DNA of 64,000 bases. It comes from Gammaproteobacteria bacterium. GTDB taxonomy: Bacteria; Pseudomonadota; Gammaproteobacteria; Pseudomonadales; Azotimanducaceae. Made by a program: the position numbers and the translations under genes. The stretch's first letter is position 1. Each line of letters starts with the position of its first letter. Under the pieces are notes generated by a model. The model was not told the origin of the DNA, made no database searches, and saw only the letters and a program-made list of their open reading frames with translations. The DNA lies in NCBI GenBank assembly GCA_026705345.1, contig JAPPAV010000077.1, forward strand, positions 62,001-126,000, given 5' to 3'. This document shows positions 5,646 to 51,955 of this stretch, one piece after another.

Positions 5646-6047
5646 TCAGAACTCGGCATTCTCGTGAATGCGGCCGCGGCGATCGACGAACACGGTCTTG
5701 ACCCGCCCATCGACGTCCACGCGAACCCGATAGCCGTCTTTCTTGCGAGGGGCAAGCCCCTCGCGCTCCCCGGCTGAGGGCTCCTTCGCACGTGCCCGTT
5801 CCGGCCGAGCCGTCGCCGCGGCGGCGGAGACCACGCGGCCGCCGTACGCCTGGCGGACGATGGCCGTGGCATCCTTGAGCGAGACTTGGGACCGCTTTGC
5901 GGGTTCCTCTTTCGGAACGCGTTTCCGATCCGACGGTTGTTCGTCCGCCGGCGGTTTGGTCTGCTCGGTTCGCTCTCCGGGTGCTTCGCCAGCGTAGCCG
6001 GCAGCGGAACCCAACGCGAACACCGCGACAAGGGCGAATCTACGCAT
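5646..6047 (-). CDS. periplasmic PepSY-domain protein carrying an inserted palindrome
   Basis: Small exported protein of 133 residues. MRRFALVAVFALGSAAGYAG is a signal peptide, which sets the ATG at 6047. A charged linker follows, then a PepSY-like domain (SLKDATAIVRQAYGGRVVSA ... YRVRVDVDGRVKTVFVDRRG). PepSY proteins are thought to regulate peptidases or act as sensory accessories, and they often sit beside PhoP/PhoQ-type systems as here. About residues 90-101 (EPSAGEREGLAPR) are encoded by a palindromic element inserted between the two halves of the PepSY fold; the same peptide occurs in ZipA in this window. The insert keeps the frame. Confidence 0.75.
   Translation of the reverse strand: MRRFALVAVFALGSAAGYAGEAPGERTEQTKPPADEQPSDRKRVPKEEPAKRSQVSLKDATAIVRQAYGGRVVSAAAATARPERARAKEPSAGEREGLAPRKKDGYRVRVDVDGRVKTVFVDRRGRIHENAEF
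5745..5780. repeat. palindromic element, type 4, inside the PepSY gene
   Basis: Stem GCGAGGGG (5745-5752), loop CAAG, stem CCCCTCGC (5757-5764), then the tail GCTCCCCGGCTGAGGG. The same stem, loop and nearly the same tail occur at 14916 inside zipA and, with a more diverged tail, at 50883 inside queG. The insert is in frame with the host gene. Confidence 0.85.
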
Positions 6048-6126
6048 AGCCAACCGCGGCGGGTTGCCGCCGCGCCTTCTCCTGACGCCATGCCATTCTA
6101 CTCCCAGTCCGACCCGGTCCCTCGGC

Positions 6127-6636
6127 TCACGCCGGGCCGACCGTGACCCGCACACGGACATGGTCGCCGGGCCGCTGGCGCATTCGGGCCTGGTAGCTCT
6201 GGCCGGCGTACTCGTAGGTGACGAGATACCCGGTGACCTCCCGGCGGTACGTGGTCTCGTCGACGACCTCGCAGACCTGGCGTCTTACCCGCCGGTTCGA
6301 CACGACGCGGCGTTCTCCGTCCCTCTGGATGTCGGCCGCGATGCTGCCGCCAAGCAGGGCACCTACGACCGCACCCACCTGCTTGTTGCGCTTCTTGTGA
6401 CCCATCGCGTTGCCGATGGCGCCGCCGATCAGGGCGCCGACCAAGGGAGTGGTTGCGCTTCGCGTTACCACCCGCTCGGGTACGTCCTCGAACCAGCAGT
6501 GCTCCTTCGGCTCCACGTGCGCCACGGTTTCGACGATCGGCTCGACGTTGGTCACCGGGGCGTCGGCGTAGCGAACGTCGCCCAGGGCGTTGGCGGAAAC
6601 GAGGGCGGCGCCGAACATCAGATTCTGTTTCCACAT
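6127..6636 (-). CDS. glycine-zipper 2TM domain envelope protein
   Basis: Exported protein of 169 residues. A hydrophobic N-terminus (MWKQNLMFGAALVSANALG) looks like a signal peptide and supports the ATG at 6636. The central segment PLVGALIGGAIGNAMG ... VGAVVGALLGGSIAADI is a glycine-zipper pair typical of outer-membrane-associated proteins of the SlyB/17-kDa antigen type. The C-terminal half (RRQVCEVVDETTYRREVTGY) is a small beta-rich domain common in this family. No lipobox cysteine is visible. The function is unknown; related proteins affect envelope integrity. Confidence 0.75.
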   Translation of the reverse strand: MWKQNLMFGAALVSANALGDVRYADAPVTNVEPIVETVAHVEPKEHCWFEDVPERVVTRSATTPLVGALIGGAIGNAMGHKKRNKQVGAVVGALLGGSIAADIQRDGERRVVSNRRVRRQVCEVVDETTYRREVTGYLVTYEYAGQSYQARMRQRPGDHVRVRVTVGPA

Positions 6637-6722
6637 GGCGGAACTCCGTTGACGTTGATCAGAAAACACGCGCGGAGTATCGGGGCGTGGAACTGAACGA
6701 AGTCTGAACAACGTCTCCGCGG

Positions 6723-7604
6723 CTAGCGACGCGAGGGGGTCGTGCGAAACCGCAACCCCGACACGCGATGGTCGTCATCGAGTTCCACGACGACATCGGC
6801 CGTCGACGGCAACATCCCCAACATGCGCCGGGTGATGCGCTCGTAGTGCGCCACGAACCGATTCACTTCGGCCGAACTCAACCTTTGATCCCGGGGTCGT
6901 TCGCCCTCCTGTTGCAGACGCCAGCGGCGGACCGCGGCGAGACCGGGCACCTTGAGGAAGACCAGTGTCTCGAGATCGTCGTTCAGCTTGGCATACGGAC
7001 CGGCAAGCACGGCCTCGACATGGCGACGCCACCGCCCGTCCCCATCGTGTTCCCGTTCCAGCGCATTGATTGGTTCGTCAATGGGCAACCCGGCGACTGG
7101 CGCACCCACGCACCAGCCCTCCAGCACCACCACGTCAACGCCTCCATCGATCCTCGCGAAGCCCGAGCGAGTGTCCTTACCCTTGTCGAAACACGGCACC
7201 TCGACCAGGCCCGGTTGGCGGAGTGCCGCCATCGCATCGCGAAGCCGCTCCACGGCGTGGGTACCCGGCGGGCCCCGTGTGGCCAGGAGCGGGTGTACGG
7301 TCTCGGCAAGCCGAAGCCGTTCCTCCTTCGTCAGGTAGAAGTCGTCGATGGATAGAACCTCGACACGCGTGCCGAAGACCGTTCCGGCTTCGGTGATCAG
7401 GCGGCCAAGCGTGGATTTGCCAACGCCTTGGCCTCCACCGATCCCCGCGGTCGCCACGCCTCGTCGGCACCAATCGTCGACCAGCAAGGCCGCCAGTTGC
7501 CGATAGTCGTCGGGTGCCTCGGCATCCAGGTGCCGGTAGCAACGCCGCACCGCCTCGCTTGGCACCACCCCAGCCAGCCCGGCAATCCGCATTGGCGCCG
7601 TCAC
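6723..7604 (-). CDS. P-loop kinase of the plant-type D-glycerate 3-kinase family
   Basis: Cytoplasmic ATP-dependent kinase of about 293 residues. The Walker A motif GIGGGQGVGKST lies near residue 55, followed by LSIDDFYLTKEER and LATRGPPGTHAVER, and VVLEGWCVGAPV as the Walker B-like strand. This arrangement matches the GLYK family, which phosphorylates D-glycerate to 3-phosphoglycerate in plants; the bacterial members are less well tested and resemble uridine kinase and pantothenate kinase. The start may be GTG at 7604 or ATG at 7592; neither has a clear ribosome binding site. Confidence 0.75.
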   Translation of the reverse strand: MTAPMRIAGLAGVVPSEAVRRCYRHLDAEAPDDYRQLAALLVDDWCRRGVATAGIGGGQGVGKSTLGRLITEAGTVFGTRVEVLSIDDFYLTKEERLRLAETVHPLLATRGPPGTHAVERLRDAMAALRQPGLVEVPCFDKGKDTRSGFARIDGGVDVVVLEGWCVGAPVAGLPIDEPINALEREHDGDGRWRRHVEAVLAGPYAKLNDDLETLVFLKVPGLAAVRRWRLQQEGERPRDQRLSSAEVNRFVAHYERITRRMLGMLPSTADVVVELDDDHRVSGLRFRTTPSRR

Positions 7605-7716
7605 GGCGTTAACATCGTCGGAGCAACCTGGCAGCGGTCACGAGTTCCCTCGTCGATCGCTGTGATTGATCGTTCGCGCCACGGTCAAAACAGATAGACG
7701 TCAATCGGGAGAGACC

Positions 7717-8343
7717 ATGAATCCTATCGCAACCTACCTCTCTACGTGGCGGCGGATGCCGCCCGTAAGGGTCTACGACACGACGCTCGACCGGCTCAAA
7801 CCATTGGACGGTGTTCCGCCGCTCTTGCTGAGGTTGATCCTCGCGCCCGTGATGATCCAGGCCGGCTGGATGAAGGCCACCGGATTCAGCGGAACCGTCT
7901 ACTGGTTCGGGAATTCCTTGGGGCTGCCGTTGCCCGAGTTGATGGCTTTCCTTGCGACAGCCGCCGAACTTGTGGGCGGCATCATGCTCCTTGCCGGGTT
8001 GGCTACCCGTCTCGTGGCGGTGCCGCTGATGATCACCATGCTGGTGGCCGCCCTCACGGTACATTGGGAGAACGGCTGGTTGGTCCTGTCCGATGCGTCG
8101 AGTTGGCTGGCCAACGACCGGATCGCGGAGGCGGTGCCACGCAAGGCCCAGATCATTTCCATCCTCAAGGAGCATGGCGACTACCGGTGGCTGACAGGTC
8201 GCGGCTCGGTGACGATTCTAAACAATGGCATCGAATTCGCCGCGATGTACTTCGTGATGCTGCTGTCGCTGTTTTTTACCGGCGGCGGGAGGTACACCAG
8301 CATCGACTACTGGCTCGGGAGAGTGGCCAAGAGGTCAGTCTAA
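7717..8343 (+). CDS. DoxX family membrane protein
   Basis: Integral membrane protein of 208 residues with four predicted hydrophobic segments (about 36-55, 75-95, 97-112 and 180-198). DoxX features include LLRLILAPVMIQAGWMKATG near the first helix and FLATAAELVGGIMLLAGLAT in the second. An extra hydrophilic stretch, DASSWLANDRIAEAVPRKAQ, sits between helices 3 and 4, longer than in minimal DoxX proteins. DoxX relatives have been linked to quinone or thiol redox complexes, but the role here is open. The sequence GGGAGAG precedes the ATG. A tandem palindrome follows the stop. Confidence 0.75.
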   Translation: MNPIATYLSTWRRMPPVRVYDTTLDRLKPLDGVPPLLLRLILAPVMIQAGWMKATGFSGTVYWFGNSLGLPLPELMAFLATAAELVGGIMLLAGLATRLVAVPLMITMLVAALTVHWENGWLVLSDASSWLANDRIAEAVPRKAQIISILKEHGDYRWLTGRGSVTILNNGIEFAAMYFVMLLSLFFTGGGRYTSIDYWLGRVAKRSV

Positions 8344-8345
8344 GC

Positions 8346-8390
8346 GGGACGGGACAAGCCCGGGCGGGACGGGACAAGCCCGTCCCCTAC
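8346..8390. repeat. type 1 palindromic element with a 20-bp partial tandem copy
   Basis: A complete element (GGGACGGG 8366-8373, loop ACAAG, CCCGTCCC 8379-8386, CTAC) is preceded by a truncated copy beginning at 8346 that stops after CCCG. The period is 20 bp. It lies between the convergent doxX-like and dinG-like genes and could act on either transcript. Confidence 0.8.
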
Positions 8391-8402
8391 TGACGCCGAG
8401 GT

Positions 8403-10493
8403 CTAGAGCTCCAACCGGTACGGCGGCAGCGCCGCGAGGAGCGACTCGCCGTACCGGCGCGTGGCAATACGCCGGTCGAGCAGGGTGATTCGCCCCTGGT
8501 CGGACTCGTTGCGAATCAGCCGGCCGCACGCCTGCACGAGCCGCAGGGAGGCATCCGGCAGGGATAGCTCCATGAACGGATTGCGGTTCTGGTTCACGAG
8601 CCATTCGGCGACCGCCTGGTCGACGGGATCGTCCGGCACGGCGAAGGGAATTCGTGCCATGATGACGTGGCGGCAGTAGTCGCCCGGCAGGTCGACGCCC
8701 TCGGCAAAGCTCGCGAGCCCGAACAAGTAGCTCGGCTGGCCTTGGTCGATCGCCTGGGTGTGATCTCGAATTAGACGCTGCTTCGACGCCTCTCCCTGCA
8801 GCCGGCAGTCTGACCGCAGTTCCTCAGGCAGCGACTCCACCACGGCATTGAACTGCCACCACGAGTTGAACAAGACCAGCGCGCTCTGTTCGAGCAGCAG
8901 GAGATCGGGCAGCAACGAAGCGATTTCTTCCGTGTGTTCCTGGGAATCCGACGGCTCGGCGCGCATACGCGGCACAGAGAACGTCGCAACGCGCTCGAAG
9001 TCGAACGGACTGGCTATCCGCGACTCCCGAACCGAACCGGCCAGCCCGGCGCTTTCCCGAAACCGGTCGAAGGTGCCCAGCGCGCAGAGCGTAGCCGACG
9101 TGGCGAGAGCGGCGTGGCAGCTAGACCACAACGTGTCGTCCAGAATCTCGCCGGGCATGAGGGGAACGCTGGTGAGTTCGATCTCTTCGCGGTGTTCTTC
9201 CACGCTCCGGGTGACCCACCGGGCCGCGGAGGCGGATGAACTGTTCCCGTAGTCGCTGAACAAGGCTTCGGCACCGGCAGCGCGACCGGCCAACTGGCCG
9301 ATGGTCGGGCGCCACGACTCCGCTTGTTCGGCATTCGGCCAGTCCAGGTTTCCCTCGACGACGTCTTCGAGGTCATTGCCCAACTCGTCGAGAATCGCGG
9401 CGACACCGCCAAACGACCTGCCGAGCGGTTCCGCGGCTTCGGCGAGCGGTTCCGGAACCTCGCCAAGCGGGAAACGGTGGGTCTCGGTGTCCGCATCGCG
9501 CGGCTCGAAGGCCAAGTCGCCGACAATGGTCCCCACGGCAGCGAGTAGATCCTCCGCCCCGCCGGCCTCTTCCGCCAGCCGTTCCCGGGCGCGATGCACT
9601 TCGCGGGGCGCCTTGAAGCGCCTCGCCATCGTCTCGATGCTCGACGAGACCTGCTTCAGCCAGTCGGCGCAGCCGCGCAACGCCGCGTGGGCGGTGAACT
9701 GGTCCCGTGTCTTGTCGGGCAGGTGATGGGCTTCATCGAGGATGAAGATGGTTTCCGAGGGGTCGGGCAGCACGACGCCGCCGCCGATGCGCAGGTCGGT
9801 CAGCACCAGGTCATGATTGGCGACGACGACATCCGCGTCGGCGACATCGGCACGCGCTCGGAACACGGGGCATTGGTGGTAGTACTTGCAGCGCCGGCCG
9901 TGGCAACCGGCGCGGTCGTTGGTGACGGGCGTCCATGCCTTCGTTGACACACCGTCCGCCCAGTTGTCGAGATCGCCGTCCCAGGTTCCGGTGTCGAACG
10001 CTGTCTCGAGCCGTCGGTAGATCGCCAGATGGTCGGCCTCCGGGGGGCCGAAGAGGCGGTCGCGCTCCGGATCGTAGGCAAGCCGGTCGTCGAGGCGCTT
10101 CAGGCAGACGTACCGACCTCGCCCCTTGGCAATCGTGAAGCTGAAGTCGAGGTCTGCATGGGCCTTGAGGTCGGGCAGGTCCCGAAGCGCCACCTGCTCC
10201 TGCAGCGCCACGGTCGCGGTGGAAATGACAACACGCTTGTCCCGGGCCTTCGCGATGGGGATGGCGGCGAGGCAGTAGGCCGCCGTTTTTCCCGTACCCG
10301 TGCCGGCTTCCACGACGCACAGTCGATCATCCTCGGTCAGGCCCCGGGCGATGTCGGCGATCATCTGCCGCTGACCGCGGCGAGCCTTGAACCCGCGGTG
10401 CCCGAGCCAAGTCGAATAGGCGTTCTGGATCGTCGCCTTCAACTCGTCGGTCAATACACTCGCGGGTGCGTCCGGCAAATCCGCCTCGCCCAT
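8403..10493 (-). CDS. dinG: ATP-dependent DNA helicase, DinG/YoaA (XPD-like) family
   Basis: Superfamily 2 5'-3' DNA helicase of about 696 residues. Walker A is EAGTGTGKT (62-70) and the DEAH box is ILDEAHHLPD (251-260). Four cysteines at about 130, 197, 202 and 208 are placed like the Fe-S cluster ligands of DinG/XPD. C-terminal motif VI is recognisable as LVQACGRLIRNESDQG. Length matches DinG (about 700). DinG resolves R-loops and other structures; the YoaA paralogue has a related repair role, and I cannot separate the two with certainty. The ATG at 10493 aligns with the usual DinG N-terminus; a TTG at 10562 would extend it. Confidence 0.88.
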   Translation of the reverse strand: MGEADLPDAPASVLTDELKATIQNAYSTWLGHRGFKARRGQRQMIADIARGLTEDDRLCVVEAGTGTGKTAAYCLAAIPIAKARDKRVVISTATVALQEQVALRDLPDLKAHADLDFSFTIAKGRGRYVCLKRLDDRLAYDPERDRLFGPPEADHLAIYRRLETAFDTGTWDGDLDNWADGVSTKAWTPVTNDRAGCHGRRCKYYHQCPVFRARADVADADVVVANHDLVLTDLRIGGGVVLPDPSETIFILDEAHHLPDKTRDQFTAHAALRGCADWLKQVSSSIETMARRFKAPREVHRARERLAEEAGGAEDLLAAVGTIVGDLAFEPRDADTETHRFPLGEVPEPLAEAAEPLGRSFGGVAAILDELGNDLEDVVEGNLDWPNAEQAESWRPTIGQLAGRAAGAEALFSDYGNSSSASAARWVTRSVEEHREEIELTSVPLMPGEILDDTLWSSCHAALATSATLCALGTFDRFRESAGLAGSVRESRIASPFDFERVATFSVPRMRAEPSDSQEHTEEIASLLPDLLLLEQSALVLFNSWWQFNAVVESLPEELRSDCRLQGEASKQRLIRDHTQAIDQGQPSYLFGLASFAEGVDLPGDYCRHVIMARIPFAVPDDPVDQAVAEWLVNQNRNPFMELSLPDASLRLVQACGRLIRNESDQGRITLLDRRIATRRYGESLLAALPPYRLEL

Positions 10494-10645
10494 GAAAAAC
10501 GCCACCGAGACAGTAACCCAATTGACGCGGGCGCGTCGCAACTTGACCTCCGCCAGCGTCAATGTCGCACATCCAATCAGGAGCCTTGCCTACACTACAA
10601 CGCTCGACTCGCACACCGGTATCGGCGGACTGCTACACTGCCCGG

Positions 10646-11746
10646 ATGAGCAGAGTGATCGTCTTTTTCGCCCTTGTGCTGCTGGCGACCCCGGTGACCG
10701 GCGGGGAGCCCGAGGGGCTTGGGGCTCGCACAGGGGACATCGCGCCCGGCTTCTCAATGGCCGTCTACACCGACGAGGTGCCGAACGCCCGGCAGATGGC
10801 CGAGACGGAATCCGGGATCTTGTTCGTGGGAACCCGGCGAGCGGGGCGGCTGTATGCCGTCGTTCCCAATCTGGATGGCGCGCCGGAGGTCGTTACCTTC
10901 GCCAAGGGCCTCACGATGCCGAGCGGGTTGGCGTTGTTGGGCGACGACCTCTACGTCGCGGCCCTCGACCGCGTCCTCCGCTATCCCGAAATCGAAACCA
11001 ACCTCCGGCAATCGCCCAAGCCCGAAGTCGTCACCGACGCCCTACCCGACAAGTATCACCACGGGTGGAAGTACCTGTCCGTCGGACCGGATGGTTTCCT
11101 GTATGTGCCCGTTGGCGCGCCGTGCAACATCTGCGAGTCGGCGGACGAGCGCTTCGCCAGCATCCTGCGCATGAATCCCCGAACCGGCGAAACTACCGTC
11201 TATGCCCACGGTGTCCGCAATTCGGTCGGCATGGCATGGCACCCCGACACCAACGAACTGTGGTTCACGGACAACGGTCGGGACATGATGGGCGACGACA
11301 TCCCGCCGGAGGAAGTAAACCGCGTCACCGACGCCGGCGCCCACTACGGCTATCCGTATATCCACGGAGCCGCGATCCGCGATCCCGAATTCGGAAAGGA
11401 TCACGATCCCGCGGACTACGTCCCGCCGGAGGTCGAGATACAAGCCCACGCGGCGGCAATCGGCATGGATTTCTACACCGGCCGCGAGTTCGGTTCCGAC
11501 TACGCGGGTGCACTGTTCATCGCCGAGCACGGCTCGTGGAACCGTTCCTCCAAGGTGGGCTACCGGGTCAGCGTGGTGCAATTCGTGGAGGACAAACCGG
11601 TCTATTCACCTTTCGTCGACATCTGGCTCGAGGGACAGAGGGCGTCCGGGCGTCCCGCCGATGTCTTGGCGGCACGCGACGGGACGTTGCTGATTTCCGA
11701 TGACCAGGGTGGCCGAATCTACCGCGTCACGCGGAAATCGGAATAG
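10646..11746 (+). CDS. periplasmic PQQ-type sugar (sorbosone) dehydrogenase family protein
   Basis: Exported six-bladed beta-propeller of 366 residues beginning with a signal peptide (MSRVIVFFALVLLATPVTGG). Family marks are GILFVGTRRAGRLYAVV, KYHHGWKYLSVGPDGFLYV, HGVRNSVGMAWHP and ELWFTDNGRDMMGDD, as in soluble glucose/sorbosone dehydrogenases. One CNIC pair occurs near residue 157. The physiological sugar is unknown, and no PQQ synthesis gene is present in this window. It is divergent from the dinG-like gene and convergent with the transglycosylase gene. Confidence 0.82.
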   Translation: MSRVIVFFALVLLATPVTGGEPEGLGARTGDIAPGFSMAVYTDEVPNARQMAETESGILFVGTRRAGRLYAVVPNLDGAPEVVTFAKGLTMPSGLALLGDDLYVAALDRVLRYPEIETNLRQSPKPEVVTDALPDKYHHGWKYLSVGPDGFLYVPVGAPCNICESADERFASILRMNPRTGETTVYAHGVRNSVGMAWHPDTNELWFTDNGRDMMGDDIPPEEVNRVTDAGAHYGYPYIHGAAIRDPEFGKDHDPADYVPPEVEIQAHAAAIGMDFYTGREFGSDYAGALFIAEHGSWNRSSKVGYRVSVVQFVEDKPVYSPFVDIWLEGQRASGRPADVLAARDGTLLISDDQGGRIYRVTRKSE

Positions 11747-11755
11747 CTGCACGCT

Positions 11756-14447
<2,692 letters not shown>

Positions 14448-15458
14448 TTACGCTCTCAAGAGCAGTCGCCGATGGTCACGTATGCGTTGGCGACAGTGCT
14501 CGATGGTTTGCGCGCTCATGTCGCTCATGCCCTCGTCCTTCAACTCCGCATCCAGCGCGATCGCGAGATCCTGCGCGACGTCGAGCATGTCCTCGAATGC
14601 CGGGCCGGGATCCCGGACCTCGCCGAGGTTGAGCAACAACACGACGCCCGGGGTCTCCAAGGCAGCCGGTCGGGAAATGTCGAATGTGCCCGGCTCGACA
14701 CCGTTCGCCACGGAGTACCAGGGTCCGCCGCAACGTGGGTCCGTCTTCTTGAAGACCCGGTCGGCATCGCACTTCAGCCCGTGGGTGACAAACGTCTTCA
14801 AGAGTGTCTCGCCATCGAGCTGCCGACCCGGCCTCGCAAACACCCAGACGACGATGATCTCGTCGAGGGACTCCGGGACGTTGGATTCATGCCGGGGCTC
14901 TTCGGGCTCTCCCCAGCGAGGGGCAAGCCCCTCGCGCTCCCCCGCTGAAGGCGCCAGCGGCGTGAATTCGAGGAACTCGGGACGCATCGCCCGGGGCACC
15001 GTGGGTTCCGTTCGCTTGCCGGCGATCTCGATCCGCCGACCCCTGCGCAAGCCCTCGGGATCCTCGTCGGCCAGCGGCGGTGCATCCGTAGATTCGACGA
15101 CGGGCGTCTCGTCGGGGCTCGACTCCGCCGCAGCCAAGGACGGGGACTCCGTGCCGGTGGTGCCCGCGGTCGTTTCGACCGATGCGGTCGTTGGCTCCAT
15201 CAACACCGGCGGCCCCGGTTCTTCATCGGCAGCGGATTCCTCGACCACCGGGTCGCCGACCAGTTCGGCTTGGGCGTCCTCGCTCCACAGAATCTCCGCG
15301 CTGTCTTCGGCCTCCATGTCGAGGGCGTCCGGCTCCGCGTCCACCCCGTCCGCATGCGGCACTCGCCGATTGGCACGCCACGCAGAGACGAGTGCGTGAA
15401 GCAGAACCAGGCAGATCAGCAATCCGCCGCCAATAAGGACGTAGCTCTTCATGTCCAT
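14448..15458 (-). CDS. zipA: cell division protein ZipA
   Basis: Inner-membrane FtsZ anchor of the divisome, 336 residues. A single N-terminal TM (YVLIGGGLLICLVLLHALVS) is followed by an acidic, Pro/Thr/Glu-rich linker (about 30-185) and a C-terminal FtsZ-binding domain (about 190-330, starting DEIIVVWVFARPG). The linker contains PSAGEREGLAPR at about residues 170-181, encoded by the same palindrome that interrupts the PepSY gene, so insertion into a flexible linker is probably tolerated. The gene starts 16 bases after smc. Confidence 0.92.
   Translation of the reverse strand: MDMKSYVLIGGGLLICLVLLHALVSAWRANRRVPHADGVDAEPDALDMEAEDSAEILWSEDAQAELVGDPVVEESAADEEPGPPVLMEPTTASVETTAGTTGTESPSLAAAESSPDETPVVESTDAPPLADEDPEGLRRGRRIEIAGKRTEPTVPRAMRPEFLEFTPLAPSAGEREGLAPRWGEPEEPRHESNVPESLDEIIVVWVFARPGRQLDGETLLKTFVTHGLKCDADRVFKKTDPRCGGPWYSVANGVEPGTFDISRPAALETPGVVLLLNLGEVRDPGPAFEDMLDVAQDLAIALDAELKDEGMSDMSAQTIEHCRQRIRDHRRLLLRA
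14916..14951. repeat. palindromic element, type 4, inside the zipA linker
   Basis: Stem GCGAGGGG (14916-14923), loop CAAG, stem CCCCTCGC (14928-14935), tail GCTCCCCCGCTGAAGG. It differs from the copy at 5745 by two changes in the tail and has the same orientation relative to its host gene. Confidence 0.85.
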
Positions 15459-15474
15459 ATGAGAACCCTCAACG

Positions 15475-34625: not shown

Positions 34626-34670
34626 GGGCGACCGCGCGCCCTTCGGGCGCGTTAGGGTCGCCCCTACGGG
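34626..34670. repeat. palindromic element, type 3, long-loop form
   Basis: Stem GGGCGACC (34626-34633) and GGTCGCCC (34656-34663), flank CTACGGG. The loop of 22 bases holds its own hairpin (GCGCCC TTC GGGCGC core), unlike the ACAAG loop of the copy at 40672. A fragment CGTAGGGGAC follows at 34682. Confidence 0.75.
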
Positions 34671-39022: not shown

Positions 39023-39049
39023 GGGACGGGACAAGCCCGTCCCCTACGG
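39023..39049. repeat. palindromic element, type 1, upstream of folE2
   Basis: Stem GGGACGGG (39023-39030), loop ACAAG, stem CCCGTCCC (39036-39043), flank CTACGG. It lies between the Trm112-like gene and folE2, both on the minus strand. Confidence 0.85.
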
Positions 39050-39083
39050 CCATGCGATTCAACGGGTTGTCCAAGGCAGTCTA

Positions 39084-39284
39084 TCACCGGCCTTCACGCA
39101 GGGTTTCTCTCTCTTCGGCGCTGAGCTCGCGGGCTTCCTCTGCGATCAGGACGGGGATGCCGTCGCGGATCGTGTACGACAAACCACTCGCTGAGCACCA
39201 CAGTTCCTCGGTCGCCGGCCGGTAGACGAGCGGTGCTTTGCTGACCGGGCAGACCAGCAGCTCGAGGAGGTTGCGATTGAACAT
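39084..39284 (-). CDS. Trm112 family zinc-ribbon-like protein
   Basis: Small protein of 66 residues: LLELLVCPVSKAPLVYRPAT, then ELWCSASGLSYTIRDGIPVL. This is the bacterial Trm112/YcaR fold, which in eukaryotes activates methyltransferases; the bacterial role is less clear. One of the usual CxxC cysteines is replaced (CPVS), so zinc binding may be weak or absent. It starts eight bases after the purA stop with GAGG in front of the ATG. Confidence 0.85.
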   Translation of the reverse strand: MFNRNLLELLVCPVSKAPLVYRPATEELWCSASGLSYTIRDGIPVLIAEEARELSAEERETLREGR

Positions 39285-39292
39285 TCTCGTCC

Positions 39293-40612
<1,320 letters not shown>

Positions 40613-40671
40613 CTAAGGACGACCCTCGCCGTTGGGTCCTAGTGAACCGTTTCCGGGCGCTGAGGTCGAAC

Positions 40672-40699
40672 GGGCGACCACAAGGGTCGCCCCTACGGG
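40672..40699. repeat. palindromic element, type 3, supplying the hflC stop
   Basis: Stem GGGCGACC (40672-40679), loop ACAAG, stem GGTCGCCC (40685-40692), flank CTACGGG. On the minus strand the flank encodes the final Pro and TAG of hflC. Confidence 0.88.
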
Positions 40700-41565: not shown

Positions 41566-41587
41566 TTGGTAATCCTCCTCCGATCCA

Positions 41588-42667: not shown

Positions 42668-42726
42668 GTTCGTCCTCGGGGTCAGGCAAAGAACGCTGAT
42701 TCTAGCCCGGACTCCCCACAAAATCG

Positions 42727-44178: not shown

Positions 44179-44338
44179 CGATCTAATCCTCGACTAAGCC
44201 GGGTGTGGCGAAACGTGCTTCGCGAGTTCCCGCCCCGGTCCGGGATGGACAAGCAAGGAACAAGACGGTCGAAACTGCAGGTGTCGGCGCGACGCCGGGG
44301 TCCAACGGCCGACCAGTCGCCCGGACGGGCACGGTAGC

Positions 44339-44380
44339 GGCGACCGCGCCCTTAAGGCAAGTTGGGGTCGCCCCTAGGGG
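44339..44380. repeat. palindromic element, type 3 long-loop form, supplying the hfq stop
   Basis: Stem GGCGACC (44339-44345) and GGTCGCC (44366-44372) with a 20-base loop, flank CCTAGGGG. On the minus strand the flank gives the TAG stop of hfq after a Pro codon. It lies inside the hfq-hflX operon, so it does not act as a full terminator if the two genes are co-transcribed. Confidence 0.75.
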
Positions 44381-44634
44381 TCGGACTCGTCGGCTGATTC
44401 CCGAGCCCCGGAGCGGTCGGCCGGCAGGCGAACGTTGCGCGACGGAACCACTGTCGAGATCGCGTGCTTGTAGACCATTTGACTGACCGAATTGCGGAGC
44501 ACGACGACGAACTGGTCGAACGACTCGATCTGACCCTGCAGCTTGATCCCGTTCACCAGGTAGACGGACACCGGCGTCCGGTCCCTTCTCAATGCGTTGA
44601 GATAGGGATCTTGCAGCGATTGCCCTTTAGACAT
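44374..44634 (-). CDS. hfq: RNA chaperone Hfq
   Basis: Sm-like hexameric protein of 86 residues that pairs small RNAs with mRNAs. [20 protein letters not shown] (Sm1) and [13 protein letters not shown] (Sm2 with YKHA) are conserved. The C-terminal tail is short and acidic (RESADESDP), shorter than in E. coli. The stop comes from a palindrome. Confidence 0.97.
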
Positions 44635-44810
44635 GCTGGATTCCTCGTGCGTCGGCGTCTGGCGTCAAGGTACGCCTTCGTCGGTTCCAACCTTTCTCGC
44701 CCTACTGCGAACGCCGCTGAATCCTGCCGTCGCCTTGCGACGCTCGCGGTCGCGCACAGCCTGCGCCCTTCTGCACACGTCTTTATATATGCACACACTA
44801 TGCCGTCGCA

Positions 44811-45749
44811 TCAGAGGTTTTGCAAGACGACGCCCACCGCCGTCGGGGCGTCGACGGCCTTGCCGGCAAGGCCGTCCCAGCCCCTTAGCCAAGTCAACTG
44901 TCGCTTTGCGATCTGGCGGGTCGCAGCGCGGATGCGTTCGACCATCGCGTCGTGGCCGTAGTCGCCGTCGAGGTGCCGCCACACCTGCCGGTAGCCCACG
45001 GCGCGCATCGCCGGTGTCTCGATCGACAAGGCAGGATCGTCGCGCAACGCCCCGACCTCGTCCACCAAACCGCGCCGGAGCATTTCGTCCAGACGACTCG
45101 CGATGCGCTGATGGAGAGACGAGCGATCCGCCGGCTCGATGGCGACCTCGACGAGCCGGCATCCCAAGCGCTGCTGTGCCGACTGGGCAGTCCTCGACCA
45201 CCAGAATCCCAGCGGTCGACCGGTCAGTTCGAGGACCTCCAGGGCGCGCTGAATTCGTTGGCCGTTGTAGGGGTCTATCCGGGCCGCGCCCTCGGGATCG
45301 CGTCGGGCCAGTTCGCCGTGCAATGCCGGCCACCCCAGCCTTGCGGCGCGTGCCGCAAGTTCGTGCCGCAGCGCCGGATCGGCCCCTGGCAGCCGGTGCA
45401 ATCCCGCCTTGAACGCCCGAAAGTAGAGCATCGTGCCACCCACCAGCACCGGTGTCCGCCCGGCGTCCAGGGAGCAACGCACCGCCTCATCGGCGTCGGC
45501 GACGAAATGTGCCGCCGAATAGGTGTCGACGGGATCGCGGATATCCACCAGCGCATGGGGGTAGCGTGCCAGCACCTCGGCCGTCGGTTTCGCGGTGCCG
45601 ATGTCCATCTTTCGGTACACCATCGCCGAGTCGACGCTGATGAGATCGACGACGGCCGCGTCCGCGATGCCGAGGGCCGCGTCCGTCTTTCCAGCTGCCG
45701 TCGGACCCATCAACGCCACCACCGCCGGCGCCGAACGGTTGTCAGTCAT
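44811..45749 (-). CDS. miaA: tRNA dimethylallyltransferase MiaA
   Basis: Prenylates A37 of tRNAs reading UNN codons. The 312-residue protein has the P-loop GPTAAGKTDAALGIA, the DSAMVYRKMDIGTAKP motif and PYNGQRIQRALEVLELTGRP. It starts nine bases after the mutL stop, in the mutL-miaA-hfq order common in Gammaproteobacteria. A 176-base gap before hfq holds an AT-rich TATATA stretch (about 44785) that may be part of an hfq promoter. Confidence 0.96.
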   Translation of the reverse strand: MTDNRSAPAVVALMGPTAAGKTDAALGIADAAVVDLISVDSAMVYRKMDIGTAKPTAEVLARYPHALVDIRDPVDTYSAAHFVADADEAVRCSLDAGRTPVLVGGTMLYFRAFKAGLHRLPGADPALRHELAARAARLGWPALHGELARRDPEGAARIDPYNGQRIQRALEVLELTGRPLGFWWSRTAQSAQQRLGCRLVEVAIEPADRSSLHQRIASRLDEMLRRGLVDEVGALRDDPALSIETPAMRAVGYRQVWRHLDGDYGHDAMVERIRAATRQIAKRQLTWLRGWDGLAGKAVDAPTAVGVVLQNL

Positions 45750-45758
45750 GGCGTGAAG

Positions 45759-47525
45759 TCACTGGCCGCGCAGGAACAGCCGGTCAAGCGCCTCCAAGGG
45801 CTGGACTACGAAGGTCGGCCGACCGTGGTTGCATTGGCCCGCGTTTTCGGTCGTCTCCATGTCCCTTAGGAGCGCGTTCATCTCGGGAAGCGACAACCGA
45901 CGGTTGGCGCGTATCGACGCGTGGCAGGCGGTTCCCGCAAGCAGCCGTTCCTGGCGTTCCACTAGCACATCCGAACTCCCGAATGCCGCGAAATCGGCAA
46001 GGACATCCCGGGCAAGCTGTTCGATGTCGGTGTCGAAGAGCAGGGCGGGAACCTCGCGCACGACGACGCTGGCCGGCCCGTTGCGTTCCATGACCATGCC
46101 CAACTCTTGGAGTTCGCCCGTTCGTGCCTCGATGAGATCCGCGTCCGTTGTCGAGACATCGAGGGCCAACGGCACCAGGAGGCGCTGGCGGTCCACCGCG
46201 CCCCCCAAAAGTTGGGTCTTCAGCCGCTCGTAGGTGATGCGCTCATGGGCAGCATGCATGTCCACGATGACGAGTCCTTGTTCGTTCTCGGCGAGGATGT
46301 AGATACCGTGGATTTGGGCGACGGCATAGCCCAAAGGGGGTGTCCCGGTCGACGAGTCCGGGAGTTGCCCGCCGTCGCGCAGTTCGAGGGCCGCGTCCTG
46401 CTCGTGGAACAACCTGGCGAGACTCGCCGCGTCGCCGTGCCGCCCCTCACCGTACTGGAACGGGAAGGTTCGCTGTCCCTCTGCGGCTGATTCGTCGGGT
46501 CGGGCTCCCGCGCCAGCCGTCACGGACGCACCTGGCCGCACGTCTCGCAATGCCCGCGACAGTTTTCCGAACATGAAGTCGTGAACATCGCGGGAGTCGC
46601 GGAAACGCACTTCGCTCTTGGTCGGATGCACGTTGACGTCCACCATCGACGGATCGAGGGTCAGGAACAGCACGAACACCGGGTGGCGACCGTGGAACAG
46701 CACATCCCGGTAGGCCTGGCGGACCGCGTGTCCGGCAAGCCGATCCTGGACACCGCGACCGTTGACGAAGAACCGCTGTCGCGTCGGCCTGCTGTCCGAG
46801 TACGTCGGCAGCCCGATCCAACCACTGAGTCGCATGTCGCCGCCCGACTCGTCGATCACCGTGGACTCGGCAAGGAATCGTTCCCCGAACACGGCGCCCA
46901 CCCGGTCGGCGTTCGAACCCGGCATCAACCGGTCGAGGGTACGTGCCCCCGCGGTCAGTTCGAACAACACGCCCGGATTGGCGAGTGCGAGACGCCGATA
47001 CGCGTCCTGCACATGGGCCGACTCCGTGCGTTCGGTCTTCAGGAACTTGCGCCGGGCCGGGGTGTTGTAGAAGAGATCCGTGACCTCCACCGTGGTTCCC
47101 GGTGGATGCGCCGCCGGTCGGTGGGCGAGTCGTTCGCCCCCGGCGACTTCCAGGCACCACGCGCCGTCCGCGTCCTTCAAGCGCGACGTGATGGCAAGCC
47201 GCGCTACGGACGCCACGCTGGCAAGTGCTTCTCCCCTGAATCCCAATGTCGCGATCTCGCCGAGATCTGCCGCCGCCGCGATCTTGCTCGTGGCATGTCG
47301 GGCCACCGCAAGAATCATGTCGTCGGGATGGATGCCCCGGCCGTCGTCGCGCACGCGGATCCGCTTCACACCCGCCTGATCGATGTCGACCCGGATGGAC
47401 GACGCCTCGGCGTCGAGGCTGTTTTCCACAAGCTCCTTGACGATGGACGCGGGCCGCTCCACGACCTCGCCGGCGGCGATCTGGTTCGCGATGAACTCGC
47501 TAAGTGGCCGTATGCGTCCGCTCAA
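45759..47525 (-). CDS. mutL: DNA mismatch repair protein MutL
   Basis: Mismatch repair matchmaker of 588 residues. The GHKL ATPase has VENSLDAEASSIRVDIDQAG, DDGRGI and GFRGEALASVASV. The C-terminal domain carries DMHAAHERITYE, close to the DQHA(x)2E(x)4E endonuclease motif, plus CHASIRA and QCNHGRPT metal-site motifs. These suggest an endonuclease-type MutL as in organisms without MutH. The start is a TTG that overlaps the amiB stop (TTGA). Confidence 0.94.
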   Translation of the reverse strand: MSGRIRPLSEFIANQIAAGEVVERPASIVKELVENSLDAEASSIRVDIDQAGVKRIRVRDDGRGIHPDDMILAVARHATSKIAAAADLGEIATLGFRGEALASVASVARLAITSRLKDADGAWCLEVAGGERLAHRPAAHPPGTTVEVTDLFYNTPARRKFLKTERTESAHVQDAYRRLALANPGVLFELTAGARTLDRLMPGSNADRVGAVFGERFLAESTVIDESGGDMRLSGWIGLPTYSDSRPTRQRFFVNGRGVQDRLAGHAVRQAYRDVLFHGRHPVFVLFLTLDPSMVDVNVHPTKSEVRFRDSRDVHDFMFGKLSRALRDVRPGASVTAGAGARPDESAAEGQRTFPFQYGEGRHGDAASLARLFHEQDAALELRDGGQLPDSSTGTPPLGYAVAQIHGIYILAENEQGLVIVDMHAAHERITYERLKTQLLGGAVDRQRLLVPLALDVSTTDADLIEARTGELQELGMVMERNGPASVVVREVPALLFDTDIEQLARDVLADFAAFGSSDVLVERQERLLAGTACHASIRANRRLSLPEMNALLRDMETTENAGQCNHGRPTFVVQPLEALDRLFLRGQ

Positions 47526-48922
47526 CTGCCGCTTGCCTTGCCGAAGGGAATGAACAGCACCTGCCCGACGAGTATGCGATTACTCGATGCGATGTTGTTG
47601 CGCATCAGCAAGAGCCGCGTCGAGGTTCCGTAGCGTTCGGCGATCTCGGAGAGCGTGTCGCCGCGCTTCACGACGTAGCGCACCGTGCCGGATTCCACCA
47701 TCGACGCCAGCAGCGTACCTTCCGGCGCGTTCATGCTGGCGTAGTCCCGGATTCCACCAGCAATCGCCCGGGCGAGCCGTCGCTGATGGGCCGGATCGGT
47801 CAACTGGCGTGCCTCGCGGGGATTCGAGAGGTAGCCCGTTTCGACGAGAATCGAGGGCAGGCTGGGCGACTTCAGAACCTGGAAAGCCTTCTCGTGGAGT
47901 CGCTTCTTGCGCAACGGGACGGTGCCCGCGAGTGCACCGAGCACGGCCTCACCCAGTTCCACGCTGGCGTTGCGCTTCGAGTCCATCGACAGGTCGACCA
48001 TGATGCGAGCAACGGACTCGGGTACGTCATGCAGCGACACCGCACCGAACCCGCCGTCGACCCCGGAGCCGTTTTCGCGATCCGCCAGCAACTTCGCCGT
48101 TTCCATTGCCGCTCCGCGCAGCGACAGTACGAACACTTCTGCCCCGTACACGCTCTTCATCCTGAACGCATTGGCGTGGATGGAAACGAACATGTCGGCA
48201 CGAGCCCGATGCGCGATCTCGAAGCGCCGACGCAGATCCACGAAATAGTCGCCATCGCGAATCAGCACCCCGCGAAACCCCGGCATCCCGTCCAGCGCCC
48301 GTTTCAGTTCCCGGGAGATTGCGAGTACGACGTTCTTCTCGTACACGCCCCCGACACCGACGGTGCCGGGGTGCCTGCCACCGTGGCCCGGATCAACCGC
48401 CACAATGACGTCCTGGTCGCGTTGCGGAGGACTCGCTTCAGTCGCAGGCTCGTCTTCACCGTCCGCCGGGTAGAGGTCGATGACCAGTCGGTGCCCGTAG
48501 GGCGCGATGGGACCGAGGACCTGTTCCCTGTGGTCGGCGCGGCGGGCGAGGTCCAGGACAACCCGGTAGTTGGTCCGCTGCCGCGGCGATGAACGGATGC
48601 GACGAACCATTCGACTGTCCGGGGAACCCGGCGAAAGCCCTCTAGCGGGCCGTGTGTCGAACAGATCGACGACGACCCGGTCGGGGTTGTCGAGCCTGAA
48701 CACCTTGAAGGACGCGACCTCTTCGGTCGTCAGCACCACCCGGGTCGAGTCCGGCCCGTCGCGGAGACGAATGCCTTCTAGCTGGTTCGCCCCCGCAGCC
48801 GGGGTCGATGCGATAGTCGCGGCGACCGCCAAGACAGCACGGTAGCGGAATGCACGCCAATGTCGGGGGAACCCCTCAATGGCGGAAGTCGATTTCGATG
48901 CGCCTGCCCAATCCCTCGACAC
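47522..48922 (-). CDS. amiB: N-acetylmuramoyl-L-alanine amidase AmiB
   Basis: Periplasmic zinc amidase that splits septal peptidoglycan, about 466 residues. After an export signal (RYRAVLAVAATIASTPAAGA) comes an AMIN domain (residues about 45-140), the catalytic amidase_3 domain (VAVDPGHGGRHPGTVG, MFVSIHANAF, LVETGYLSN) and a C-terminal LysM (YVVKRGDTLSEIAERYG). No ATG fits the start. GGAGG lies nine bases before GTG 48922 (six before TTG 48925), so I place the start there, which overlaps tsaE by 47 bases. Confidence 0.9.
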   Translation of the reverse strand: MSRDWAGASKSTSAIEGFPRHWRAFRYRAVLAVAATIASTPAAGANQLEGIRLRDGPDSTRVVLTTEEVASFKVFRLDNPDRVVVDLFDTRPARGLSPGSPDSRMVRRIRSSPRQRTNYRVVLDLARRADHREQVLGPIAPYGHRLVIDLYPADGEDEPATEASPPQRDQDVIVAVDPGHGGRHPGTVGVGGVYEKNVVLAISRELKRALDGMPGFRGVLIRDGDYFVDLRRRFEIAHRARADMFVSIHANAFRMKSVYGAEVFVLSLRGAAMETAKLLADRENGSGVDGGFGAVSLHDVPESVARIMVDLSMDSKRNASVELGEAVLGALAGTVPLRKKRLHEKAFQVLKSPSLPSILVETGYLSNPREARQLTDPAHQRRLARAIAGGIRDYASMNAPEGTLLASMVESGTVRYVVKRGDTLSEIAERYGTSTRLLLMRNNIASSNRILVGQVLFIPFGKASGS

Positions 48923-49292
48923 CAAGCCGAACCTCCATGTCCGCCCGCGGGAGCCGGTCGCCAGCATTGGCGGGCCACTCGACGAGTTTCACCGCCTGCT
49001 CGCCCATCAAGTCGTCGATGCCGATGTAGCCCAGCTCCCGGGGATCGACGATCCGATAGAAGTCGAAATGATAAACCCTGAGGGAACCAATCTCATAGCT
49101 TTCGAGCAACGTGTAGGTGGGACTCTTCACCGCGCCTTCGAACCCAAGTGCACGAAGGTACCCCCGCACGAGCGTGGTCTTGCCCACACCGAGGTCACCC
49201 TGCAGAAAAACCAACTCCGACGACAACGCGAGCTCCACCAAGCGCGCGCCAAAGGCAAGCGTCGCCGCCTCGTCAGGAAGATGGGCGTTCAC
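48876..49292 (-). CDS. tsaE: tRNA threonylcarbamoyladenosine biosynthesis ATPase TsaE
   Basis: P-loop ATPase of 138 residues acting with TsaB/TsaD to make t6A37. The Walker A LQGDLGVGKTTLVRGYLRAL, followed by SPTYTLLESYE, YHFDFYRI and LVEWPANAGDRL, is characteristic. The start is GTG overlapping the nnr stop (GTGA). Confidence 0.95.
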   Translation of the reverse strand: MNAHLPDEAATLAFGARLVELALSSELVFLQGDLGVGKTTLVRGYLRALGFEGAVKSPTYTLLESYEIGSLRVYHFDFYRIVDPRELGYIGIDDLMGEQAVKLVEWPANAGDRLPRADMEVRLGVEGLGRRIEIDFRH

Positions 49293-50764
49293 GCGGTAAG
49301 CCGTAGCGCACCGATGAGATCGCCGGCGATCAACGATCCGGCGTGGCCGGCCCGTGCTTCGTCTCCGGCCCGGGCGTGCAGCCAGACACCCAGTTCCGCC
49401 GCCGCGAGCGGTTCCAAGCCACGGGCCAGCAAGGCCCCGACGATGCCGGTCAGGACATCGCCGCTACCCGCGGTCGCCATCCCGGGATTGCCGCCCAGAC
49501 AGACCGAGGCGACGGCGCCTTCCATCGCAATCAGGGTTCCCGCGCCTTTCAAGACCGCGATTGCACCCGAGAGGTTTCCCTTGCTAAGCCGTGCCGCAGC
49601 TTCGGGTCGGTTCGACTGGATCCACGTTGTTGTTTCACCGAGAAGACGGCCTGCCTCGCCGGGATGTGGGGTCACAATCGTCGCCGGCGGCAAGCCGACG
49701 CTCCTATCCGCAACGATATTCAAGCCGTCGGCATCCACGACCATCGGCTTGCCCGCATCGGCGACTGTTCTCAGCAAGCCGTTGCCCCAGTCGCTACGGC
49801 CTAATCCGGGCCCCACCGCGATGGCGGATGCGCGCTCCACCAGATCGGCGATGTCCTTGGGGTCCTCCACCCCCCGAACCATTAGTTCGGGCCGCCGCGC
49901 CAAGATCGCCGCCCGGTTCTCGCTACGCGTGGCAATGGTGACGAGACCTGCACCCGTCCGCAGCGCGGCCTCCCCGGCCAGCAGGACGGCACCCCCCATG
50001 TCCGTCTCGCCTCCCACCACCAGCAACCGCCCGAAGTCCCCCTTGTGGGCACCGGGTCGGCGAGCGAGCGTGGCGAGTCCGGCTCCGTCCATCACCCGGA
50101 CCCCGGGTCTGTCGAAAACTGCCTCCGGCAGATCGAGGTCGTCGAGGAGCAACTCGCCCACGAAGTCCACTGCATCACCGGTCACCAGCCCGAGTTTGGC
50201 CGCGACAAAGGTTACCGTGACATCTGCGCGTACCGGATGTGCCGTCAATAGGCCACCGTTCTCCGCGTCGACCCCACTCGGGAGGTCGAGAGCCAAGACC
50301 GGCTTGCCGGCGGCGTTAATCCTATCGACGGCTGTCTGATAGGGAAGCCGCACCGCGCCCTGCGCGCCCGTGCCGAGCAACGCGTCGACGACCACATCGC
50401 CGCCGACACTCCAGCCATCCAGCTGTTGCTCGAACCGCCCACCGAGACGAGCCTCGGCGAAACGACAAGCCTGCATCGCTTCTCCGGCGAGCTTGCCGGG
50501 GTCGCCGACCGGTATCAGTTGCACATCGAACCCCGCATCCTTGGCGCAACCCGCGACGACATAGCCATCGCCCGCGTTGTTCCCCGAACCGCAGATGATC
50601 GAGAGGATGCGGGCGTCCGGCCAACGCGAACGGAGTACGTCGAATGCCGCCCGGCCGGCACGGTGCATCAGGCGGACACCCGGAATCGAGAACTCGTTGA
50701 TGGCGCGCCGGTCGAAGGCGCGGACCTCCGATGCCGAGAAGACGTTCCGTGTCGGCTGGCGCAT
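49289..50764 (-). CDS. nnr: bifunctional NAD(P)H-hydrate repair enzyme
   Basis: Repairs damaged NAD(P)H. The N-terminal epimerase domain (NnrE) has ICGSGNNAGDGYVVAG and ALDLPSGVDAENG; the C-terminal dehydratase (NnrD) has GLVTIATRS, VVDADGLNIVAD, TPHPGEAGRLLG and TAGSGDVLTGIVGALLA. With the ATG at 50764 the protein is 491 residues. An AAAGGAG lies 18 bases before the ATG, too far to be ideal; an upstream GTG at 50803 is possible. It starts the nnr-tsaE-amiB-mutL-miaA run and is divergent from queG. Confidence 0.94.
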   Translation of the reverse strand: MRQPTRNVFSASEVRAFDRRAINEFSIPGVRLMHRAGRAAFDVLRSRWPDARILSIICGSGNNAGDGYVVAGCAKDAGFDVQLIPVGDPGKLAGEAMQACRFAEARLGGRFEQQLDGWSVGGDVVVDALLGTGAQGAVRLPYQTAVDRINAAGKPVLALDLPSGVDAENGGLLTAHPVRADVTVTFVAAKLGLVTGDAVDFVGELLLDDLDLPEAVFDRPGVRVMDGAGLATLARRPGAHKGDFGRLLVVGGETDMGGAVLLAGEAALRTGAGLVTIATRSENRAAILARRPELMVRGVEDPKDIADLVERASAIAVGPGLGRSDWGNGLLRTVADAGKPMVVDADGLNIVADRSVGLPPATIVTPHPGEAGRLLGETTTWIQSNRPEAAARLSKGNLSGAIAVLKGAGTLIAMEGAVASVCLGGNPGMATAGSGDVLTGIVGALLARGLEPLAAAELGVWLHARAGDEARAGHAGSLIAGDLIGALRLTA

Positions 50765-50827
50765 ACGTTCGAATCGATCGACTCCTTTCGTGGGAACATA
50801 CACGAAACCGGTAGCATCGTATTTCCG

Positions 50828-51955
50828 ATGGCGACCAAACCCGCAGCCCCGCAGCTGCGACCCGACTTACCGTCCCTTCCTGGCGAGGGGCAAGCCCCTC
50901 GCGCCACCTCGCTGAAGACACTTGCCCGCGACATCGAGCGATGGGCGGGAGAACTGGGTTTTCAGGACGTCGGCATCGCCGACACCGAACTAGCGAACTA
51001 TGCGCCCGCGTTCCGCACCTGGCTCGAACAGCGGCTTTACGGGGACATGGGCTATCTTGCGCGCAACGTCGACAAACGCCTCGAACCGGATCGGCTGCAC
51101 CCGGGCACAATCCGCGTCATCTCGGCCCGCATGGACTACCTGGGCACGCCGCCGCCCGCGGCAACGGACCTTCCCGCCAACGACGGGTCCGCCTACATCG
51201 CACGCTACGCCCACGGACGCGACTACCACAAGACCGTGCGACGTCGCTTGGCGCGGCTTGCGGCGCGCATCGACTCCAGCACGGGCGGGCGGTTTCGGGC
51301 GTTCACCGACTCGGCACCTGTCCTCGAGAAACCGCTCGGCGAAAAATCCGGGCTTGGCTGGATCGGCAAGAACACGTTGCTGCTAAGCGAAGAGGCGGGC
51401 TCGTGGTTTTTCCTGGGCGAGATCTACACCGACCTGCCGTTGCCCGTGACGCCAAGGCGGCCGCAACCGGGCTGCGGCACCTGCCGCGCCTGCATGACCG
51501 TCTGTCCGACCGATGCCATCATCGGACCCCGCAAGCTCGATGCGAGGCGCTGCATCTCGTACCTGACCATCGAGCACAAGGGAACGATTCCGGTCGAATT
51601 CCGCGAAGCGATCGGCAACCGCGTGTTCGGCTGCGACGATTGCCAGATCGTCTGCCCCTGGAACCGGTTCGCGCGACGGTCCCCGGAAGCCGAGTTCGCA
51701 CCGCGGCACGGTCTCGACCACGCCACCCTCGTCGACCTGCTCGGCTGGGACGAAACCACGTTCCTAGCGCGGACCCAGGGAATGGCGCTCCGCCGGGTCA
51801 ACTACGAACAGTGGGTCCGCAACCTCGCCGTCGCCGCCGGCAACGCACCCCCAGATCCGGCGATTGTCGCAGCCCTGAAGCGCCGGCAAGAATCCGCAAG
51901 CGCCATGGTGCGCGAGCACATCGACTGGGCCCTGGCGCGCCAATGCGCGCCCTGA
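50828..51955 (+). CDS. queG: epoxyqueuosine reductase QueG with a palindrome in its 5' coding region
   Basis: Cobalamin- and Fe-S-dependent enzyme that makes queuosine from epoxyqueuosine in tRNA, 375 residues. Core features are ELGFQDVGIADTEL, SGLGWIGKNTLLLSEEAGSW, two 4Fe-4S motifs (CGTCRACMTVCPT and CDDCQIVCPW) and ALRRVNYEQWVRNLAVAAG. Residues about 19-26 (GEGQAPRA) are encoded by a type 4 palindrome placed between the ATG and the first family residues, so the extra N-terminus is probably not functional. It is divergent from nnr. Confidence 0.95.
   Translation: MATKPAAPQLRPDLPSLPGEGQAPRATSLKTLARDIERWAGELGFQDVGIADTELANYAPAFRTWLEQRLYGDMGYLARNVDKRLEPDRLHPGTIRVISARMDYLGTPPPAATDLPANDGSAYIARYAHGRDYHKTVRRRLARLAARIDSSTGGRFRAFTDSAPVLEKPLGEKSGLGWIGKNTLLLSEEAGSWFFLGEIYTDLPLPVTPRRPQPGCGTCRACMTVCPTDAIIGPRKLDARRCISYLTIEHKGTIPVEFREAIGNRVFGCDDCQIVCPWNRFARRSPEAEFAPRHGLDHATLVDLLGWDETTFLARTQGMALRRVNYEQWVRNLAVAAGNAPPDPAIVAALKRRQESASAMVREHIDWALARQCAP
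50883..50917. repeat. palindromic element, type 4, in the queG 5' region
   Basis: Stem GCGAGGGG (50883-50890), loop CAAG, stem CCCCTCGC (50895-50902), then a diverged tail GCCACCTCGCTGAAG. Here the host gene reads the opposite strand of the element compared with zipA and the PepSY gene. Confidence 0.8.

Follow-up and report, generated by a model that had tools for sequence, protein, structure and literature searches.

Forty-five-base-pair palindromic units inside gammaproteobacterial protein genes: a probable family of small mobile elements

How does the same short palindrome come to lie inside three unrelated genes of one bacterial genome? The 20-mer GCGAGGGGCAAGCCCCTCGC occurs exactly at positions 5745-5764, 14916-14935 and 50883-50902 of the window, the whole 64,000-nt stretch analysed here (assembly GCA_026705345.1, contig JAPPAV010000077.1, positions 62,001 to 126,000), just as an initial annotation had claimed. 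This is far above chance: dinucleotide shuffles predict 0.02 matches at up to three mismatches, and six were found, counting both strands of the three sites. All three copies are in genes, whereas all eight exact copies of other REP palindromes in the window, used as a control, are intergenic. Two further REP types are present, GGGACGGGACAAGCCCGTCCC (either strand) and GGGACGCCACAAGGGCGTCCC, at window positions 3464, 8366, 39023, 21866, 34578, 33363, 38007 and 52055, all intergenic. A further repeat, CGCGCCCTTCGGGCGCGTTAGGGTCGCCCCTACGGG, spans 34635-34670 and 44345-44380, with its copies 83% alike.

The first copy (5737-5783, plus strand) consists of TCTTTCTT on the left, the palindrome, and a tail running to GGGCTC. 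Its host is a gene for a small PepSY-like protein of 133 aa (5646-6047, minus strand), where the minus-strand reading PSAGEREGLAPRKK gives residues 90-103 when the protein is started at 6047. The second copy (14904-14954, plus strand) has GGGCTCTCCCCA, the palindrome and the tail, and reads APSAGEREGLAPRW on the minus strand; it is in zipA (14448-15458, minus strand), which adjoins smc, and precedes the ZipA_C domain (residues 201-325). The third copy (50871-50921, plus strand), with a worn tail, reads LPGEGQAPRATSLK on the plus strand and is in queG (50828-51955, plus strand), in an N-terminal extension ahead of the QueG model start at residue 36. The zipA and queG identities proposed earlier agree with a ZipA_C match of 101 bits and a TIGR00276 match of 442 bits from residue 36 onward, and the two sites, a linker and an N-terminal extension, are of the kinds that it named. 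The peptides claimed, PSAGEREGLAPR in the PepSY-like and ZipA proteins and GEGQAPRA in QueG, were likewise found. The window copy of the PepSY-like protein scores only 12.7 bits (E 0.17) against the PepSY model. Of the insertion-free orthologues, that of genome G010 scores 21.7 bits, short of the cut-off of 24, and that of G001 passes it with 24.1 bits, so the protein is probably named correctly, with the insertion inside the domain. The initial annotation had found this position surprising. It is indeed within the domain, but in a loop whose length varies between orthologues, and is therefore less surprising than it looked.

What is the element itself? GCGAGGGGCAAGCCCCTCGC is a 9-bp inverted repeat around AA that folds into an 8-bp stem with a CAAG loop, matching the stem-CAAG-stem described at the outset. 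The accompanying tail, GCTCCCC(G/C)GCTGA(G/A)GG, can be read plainly in the first two copies but is worn in the third (GCCACCTCGCTGAAG). A feature missed at first is that the palindrome is the core of a 45-bp (15-codon) unit that forms arrays. The unit is composed of GGGCTCTTTCTT, GCGAGGGGCNNGCCCCTCGC and GCTCCCCGGCTGA, includes a conserved 25-nt spacer, and is open in five of six frames in its consensus form. In a profile over 145 arrays, the stem is flanked by TTTCTT on the left and GCTCCCC on the right. The right end is sharp, conservation ending after GGGCTC (GCTGARGGCTC), and the left end fades; the first units of arrays are often cut or worn on their left side. A different hairpin (like CCGCCGCTTCGCGGCGGGGG) is joined to the same tail, GCTCCCCGGCTGARGGCTC, at several loci (L089 4430, L115 3428-3539, L129 2096-2162, L097 677 and L153 5495), and the L115 copy is inside a helicase gene. 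The tail, being joined to two different hairpins, may be the recognised part.

The element is far more widespread than the window suggests. A genome-wide search for the stem, as the initial annotation had recommended, found 39 separate sites in the source genome with two mismatches or fewer (16 exact, 20 with one mismatch and 3 with two). Many are 45 bp apart in head-to-tail arrays, with one array of 46-bp units. The stem is present in 13 of 16 genomes of the genus, at 0 to 149 copies per genome, G013 being one of those with none. Within the family, a stricter 34-base pattern occurs in 7 of a sample of 61 genomes, representing 3 of 37 genera. A scan of GTDB contigs found at least 112 loci; by their record titles, the matches listed are Gammaproteobacteria or Pseudomonadales MAGs, and one is Candidatus Azophilus lithoversatilis. 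The COS, RHO, CAR, IRC and SB bins are presumably of sponge origin. Genomes carrying the element are gammaproteobacterial and 3-6 Mb in size. Two records are single 4.3-Mb chromosomes (OY282455 and OY282460), and OY282460 has three consecutive units inside a called gene (L056), so the arrays are not solely a product of fragmented assembly. Arrays also stand at contig starts (G000:C26, G000:C45, L067, L079 and L119), and the zipA and rpoB genes of G008 are cut in arrays; draft genomes therefore probably undercount copies. An ordinary local minisatellite was rejected because the units are dispersed over unrelated genes rather than confined to one locus. The exact 34-base pattern had no match in viral_contigs and a 90-nt double unit had none among plasmids, and a virus or plasmid was rejected as the vehicle on that basis.

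Are these stretches insertions? For all three window genes, orthologues without the residues indicate a clean in-frame insertion, as predicted. The refuting condition set at the outset, orthologues that share the residues at the same positions, was applied within the genus and did not overturn this reading. The PepSY-like gene has a match in 15 of 16 genomes; the 14 residues are missing from all nine aligned orthologues, and the locus is a net 42 bp shorter in G010, G008, G006 and G004. For queG, G000 has one unit, G008 has two (45 bp more) and G011 has none (net 55); G010 has units at a contig start in this region, and G004 has a stem in the same stretch. The history of zipA, which has a match in all 16 genomes, is richer. 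Two of the ten proteins displayed (G000 and G010) have the window site, downstream of a GKRTEPTVPR motif; five have no unit, and three have units only elsewhere in the linker. Specifically, the unit in G008 (cut at a contig end) is well upstream of the motif, and G007 and G009 have two and four units (one of the four degenerate), nearer upstream, differing by exactly 90 bp. The window site is empty in G008 (net 45 bp), G006 (48) and G004 (42). These alignments point to insertion at two separate sites in zipA and probably a third.

A further host, outside the window, is rpoB. In G004, RNA polymerase beta has 30 extra residues, equal to two units, that are absent from G006, with 98% identity between the two genomes ahead of the insert and 97% beyond it. 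None of the other 12 aligned genomes has the units; the G008 contig ends inside a unit at the same spot, and G002 is cut before it. Similar filled and empty alleles are found at other loci, with differences of 45 bp (L043/L297, L085/L230, L149/L269 and L023/L111), 135 bp (three units, L012/L087) and 270 bp (six units, L154/L273). Unit number differs by 45 or 90 bp in the zipA pair G007/G009, the queG pair G000/G008, and L054/L147, L121/L136 and L135/L289. Some differences are not whole units (63 bp for L005/L058 and 54 bp for L004/L095). Judged from sequence comparison, the insertions are derived. An additional 15-aa stretch, sometimes repeated, is predicted in host proteins that include a cell-division protein and, in a relative, RNA polymerase.

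Is the reading frame protected? Among 177 distinct arrays, 138 have both flanks, and 31 of these have a counterpart scored empty. Each array was assigned a position by the genes called on its array-free counterpart, "internal" meaning more than 10 residues inside a gene. The net length is a multiple of three for 14 of 15 internal arrays, a set not wholly independent since window 14916 and L065:6704 are one site, versus 8 of 16 arrays that are intergenic or at gene ends (Fisher p 0.015). All 14 are open in one frame on both sides. Six of their nets are exact multiples of 45 and two are 42; the remaining six (15, 21, 24, 33, 39 and 99) are affected by additional indels or by a worn copy, for example L101 versus the window. 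The exception, L072 (2936-3186), has six 43-bp units with a net of 259 that put the gene called on its relative L270 out of frame; the units are open through three frames in turn.

Unit spacing is consistent with this, with a caveat. Among the matches listed, spacings are multiples of three in 37 of 37 cases in genes and 26 of 42 between genes, or, by array, in 25 of 25 in genes, 5 of 5 at edges and 13 of 19 between genes, several intergenic arrays having units of 39-47 bp; the in-gene counts are partly circular because genes were called with our own codon-bias script, which favours frame-keeping arrays and is less prone to call genes across frame-breaking ones. The missing stop-making frame in deep-internal arrays was rejected as a sign of purging for a similar reason, as the caller would end the ORF there. 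Hence, the frame argument rests on the pairs classified on an array-free relative.

The gene context of the arrays was also tabulated. Among the matches listed (at least 112 loci), there are 126 arrays, 75 in genes, 45 intergenic and 6 at edges, with gene context weak for the 32 within 150 bp of a locus end. Arrays are rarer in genes than chance (75 of 126 among these matches, versus 91% of the DNA called coding), yet still frequent in them. In the same matches, 48 of the 75 in-gene arrays are within 30 residues of a gene end, versus 18.7 expected, an excess that may be due in part to wrong start calls. The other 27 are deep-internal. Twenty of their hosts were scanned against Pfam (E 1e-5), and 18 had a match. 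Some arrays fall between domains: one separates the lipoyl and E3-binding domains in the E2 acyltransferase of a 2-oxoacid dehydrogenase, one stands between the two domains of apolipoprotein N-acyltransferase, and one, in a large helicase, follows the DEAD domain and precedes the C-terminal helicase domain. Of the 20 hosts, at least 6 have the array within one Pfam match rather than a linker. Arrays inside domains include those in RNA polymerase beta (RNA polymerase domain 6), a sigma-54 activator (sigma-54 AAA), a TonB receptor (TonB barrel) and aspartate aminotransferase (matched domain), as well as DUF4892 and Uma2 matches. Such sites are presumably surface loops. Further deep-internal hosts are glycinamide ribonucleotide synthetase, a CcmH/CycH protein, an ABC exporter and a DsbD N-terminal domain protein.

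What mechanism could produce this pattern? We consider it probable that the units are a family of small non-autonomous mobile palindromic elements with a fixed right end and a variable left end, whose frame-breaking copies have been removed. The fixed right end, the variable left end and the likeness at junctions suggest copying that starts at one end and may stop anywhere. New copies would be written, at least partly, at sites with short GGCTC/GAGCC likeness, without target duplication, either by template switching primed at microhomology or by an enzyme acting in trans; selection would then purge copies that break a reading frame. In the cleanest pairs, L043/L297 (45 bp) and L140/L294 (42 bp), roughly one unit has been gained, with no target duplication. 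At least four of the six bases of GGGCTC are present just before the right junction in the empty site of 8 of 23 pairs, versus 6% of background positions; six pairs count after dropping L115 (an existing array) and the repeated site (window 14916, the same as L065). These two cleanest pairs show no microhomology, and in some other pairs GGCTC-like bases stand at each end. The units are best regarded as selfish or neutral DNA that lengthens proteins as a by-product. A bolder version, which we put forward tentatively and would not bet on, is that a translatable 45-bp palindrome moves without its own transposase by copy choice at microhomology and grows in frame in essential genes such as rpoB. 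If this is true, it would steadily lengthen the proteins of a whole genus, which gain neutral raw material for new linkers.

The strongest alternative is that the unit is a REP whose mover is a RAYT (Y1 HUH) transposase, as for the GTAG REP families. The hairpin core and insertion without target duplication fit single-strand transposition, and a Y1_Tnp match is present in 10 of 16 genomes, with at least one in each of the five richest in copies (G009, G007, G000, G008 and G010). However, the exact inner stem was found at 0 of 19 Y1_Tnp loci, several of which are at contig ends with flanks partly missing, and a RAYT was rejected as the simple answer. Two RAYT-like loci (L031 and L155) are instead flanked by another REP, GGGACGGGCTTGTCCCGTCCC, and the unit has neither a GTAG or CGTC tag nor a fixed left end in the 145-array profile. 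Moreover, no Y1_Tnp match was found in four genomes that have the stem (G006, G011 and the single-contig G014 and G015), although a mover may have been lost there since each has only 2 to 6 copies. A Y1 transposase as the dedicated mover is therefore unlikely. As a separate observation, GGGACGGGACAAGCCCGTCCC also flanks the RAYT-like gene at G000:C29 (L031 1372-2019).

Could the peptide be what is selected? A 15-residue repeat might be useful as a flexible charged linker, and be kept and amplified by selection. Among the matches listed, the 27 deep-internal arrays use the frames EPSAGEREG, QPGSARG, SRGARG, RGASPSR and CEGQAPR in 14, 5, 2, 6 and 0 cases, and 13 of 26 against equal use of five frames gives a binomial p of 0.0006. 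The codon phases of GAGCC/GGCTC sites in open frames supply 521, 364, 129, 274 and 176 sites in the same order (1464 in total), and frame use tracks this supply in rank, save that the first frame is used more and the last less. The repeated hits on zipA and the excess of EPSAGEREG-APRKK over supply (14 of 27 listed arrays versus 521 of 1464 sites) speak for a useful peptide. Yet much of this frame's commonness is explained by the codon phase of GAGCC sites. Three other frames, encoding unrelated peptides, are used as well, close relatives manage without units, and arrays are intergenic too. A peptide benefit is not required for the frame use, some remaining preference may exist, and a selected module seems to us quite improbable.

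A function of the hairpin as nucleic acid (mRNA stability, termination or protein binding), with gene insertion incidental, is very unlikely. The hairpin is stable (-15.7 kcal/mol for 20 nt) and 45 of the 126 arrays among the matches listed are intergenic, but no Rfam match was found in the window at gathering scores, and covariation over 259 units is slight (89 broken pairs against 3 double compensating changes and 19 G-U pairs), recent copying leaving little variation to read. Lastly, chance hairpins are not rare in a G+C-rich genome, but the idea that the residues are ancestral or convergent low-complexity sequence has almost no chance of being right, given relatives that lack the stretch between flanks 85-98% identical, and it is refuted for the PepSY-like gene, zipA and rpoB.

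What do these palindromic units in protein genes add to what is known? The best-known cases of selfish DNA inside functioning genes come from Rickettsia and Wolbachia, which are intracellular and have small genomes. Here, insertion, in-frame growth and tolerance can be counted directly in hosts whose function is not easily spared (rpoB and zipA), because there are up to 149 copies, filled and empty alleles above 90% identity, and whole-unit differences in zipA between sisters. No report of the 45-bp element was found in the open-licence literature searched, where exact sequence strings also had no match.

Four known systems invite comparison, each as described in passages of the papers cited. 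First, RPE/WPE palindromes occupy intergenic DNA and also unrelated protein genes, where they keep the frame (PMC2229807, PMC4224334), WPE-like inserts being described in addA, addB and priA (PMC4224334). The resemblance to Rickettsia elements seen by the initial annotation holds for behaviour, namely in-frame insertion into unrelated genes whose orthologues lack it, with no claim of sequence kinship. It does not extend to length (a 45-bp unit with a 20-bp palindrome, versus terminal inverted repeats and 105-146 bp for RPEs, the length as given in the passages of PMC2229807), to head-to-tail growth, which here reaches six units (L154), or to the host group, here Gammaproteobacteria. Second, CGTC REPs have stems of 8-9 bp and loops of 4-5 nt, and some are inside ORFs; REPs within ORFs are known from several species, and in Thauera and R. 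conorii intragenic REP clusters account for 43 to 82 encoded residues (passages of PMC3733652). The hairpin described here, 8 bp plus CAAG, is within that range. However, head-to-head dimers predominate in GTAG/CGTC REPs (same source), whereas these arrays run head to tail, with no opposite-strand pair within 130 bp among the 126 arrays in the matches listed, and the stem ends without a GTAG or CGTC tag. GTAG REPs further differ in that the 45-bp unit has a 25-nt spacer and no Y1 transposase gene beside it. Third, PARCELs are translated tandem coding repeats with dyad symmetry, which is a likeness; they encode 25-residue amphipathic domains in ORFs of unassigned function (as described in part of PMC2996958), whereas this unit encodes 15 residues and is also in conserved housekeeping genes. 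Fourth, bacterial MITEs (Correia/NEMIS, ERIC and YPAL) are non-autonomous small repeats of roughly 100-200 bp, some fused to genes in frame, with target duplication marked for four of seven families in the portion of PMC2229807 that covers them; the 45-bp unit is shorter, and its two cleanest pairs lack a target duplication. What is distinct here is a 45-bp codon-compatible unit, its head-to-tail growth inside genes, differences in unit number between sisters, and rpoB as a host.
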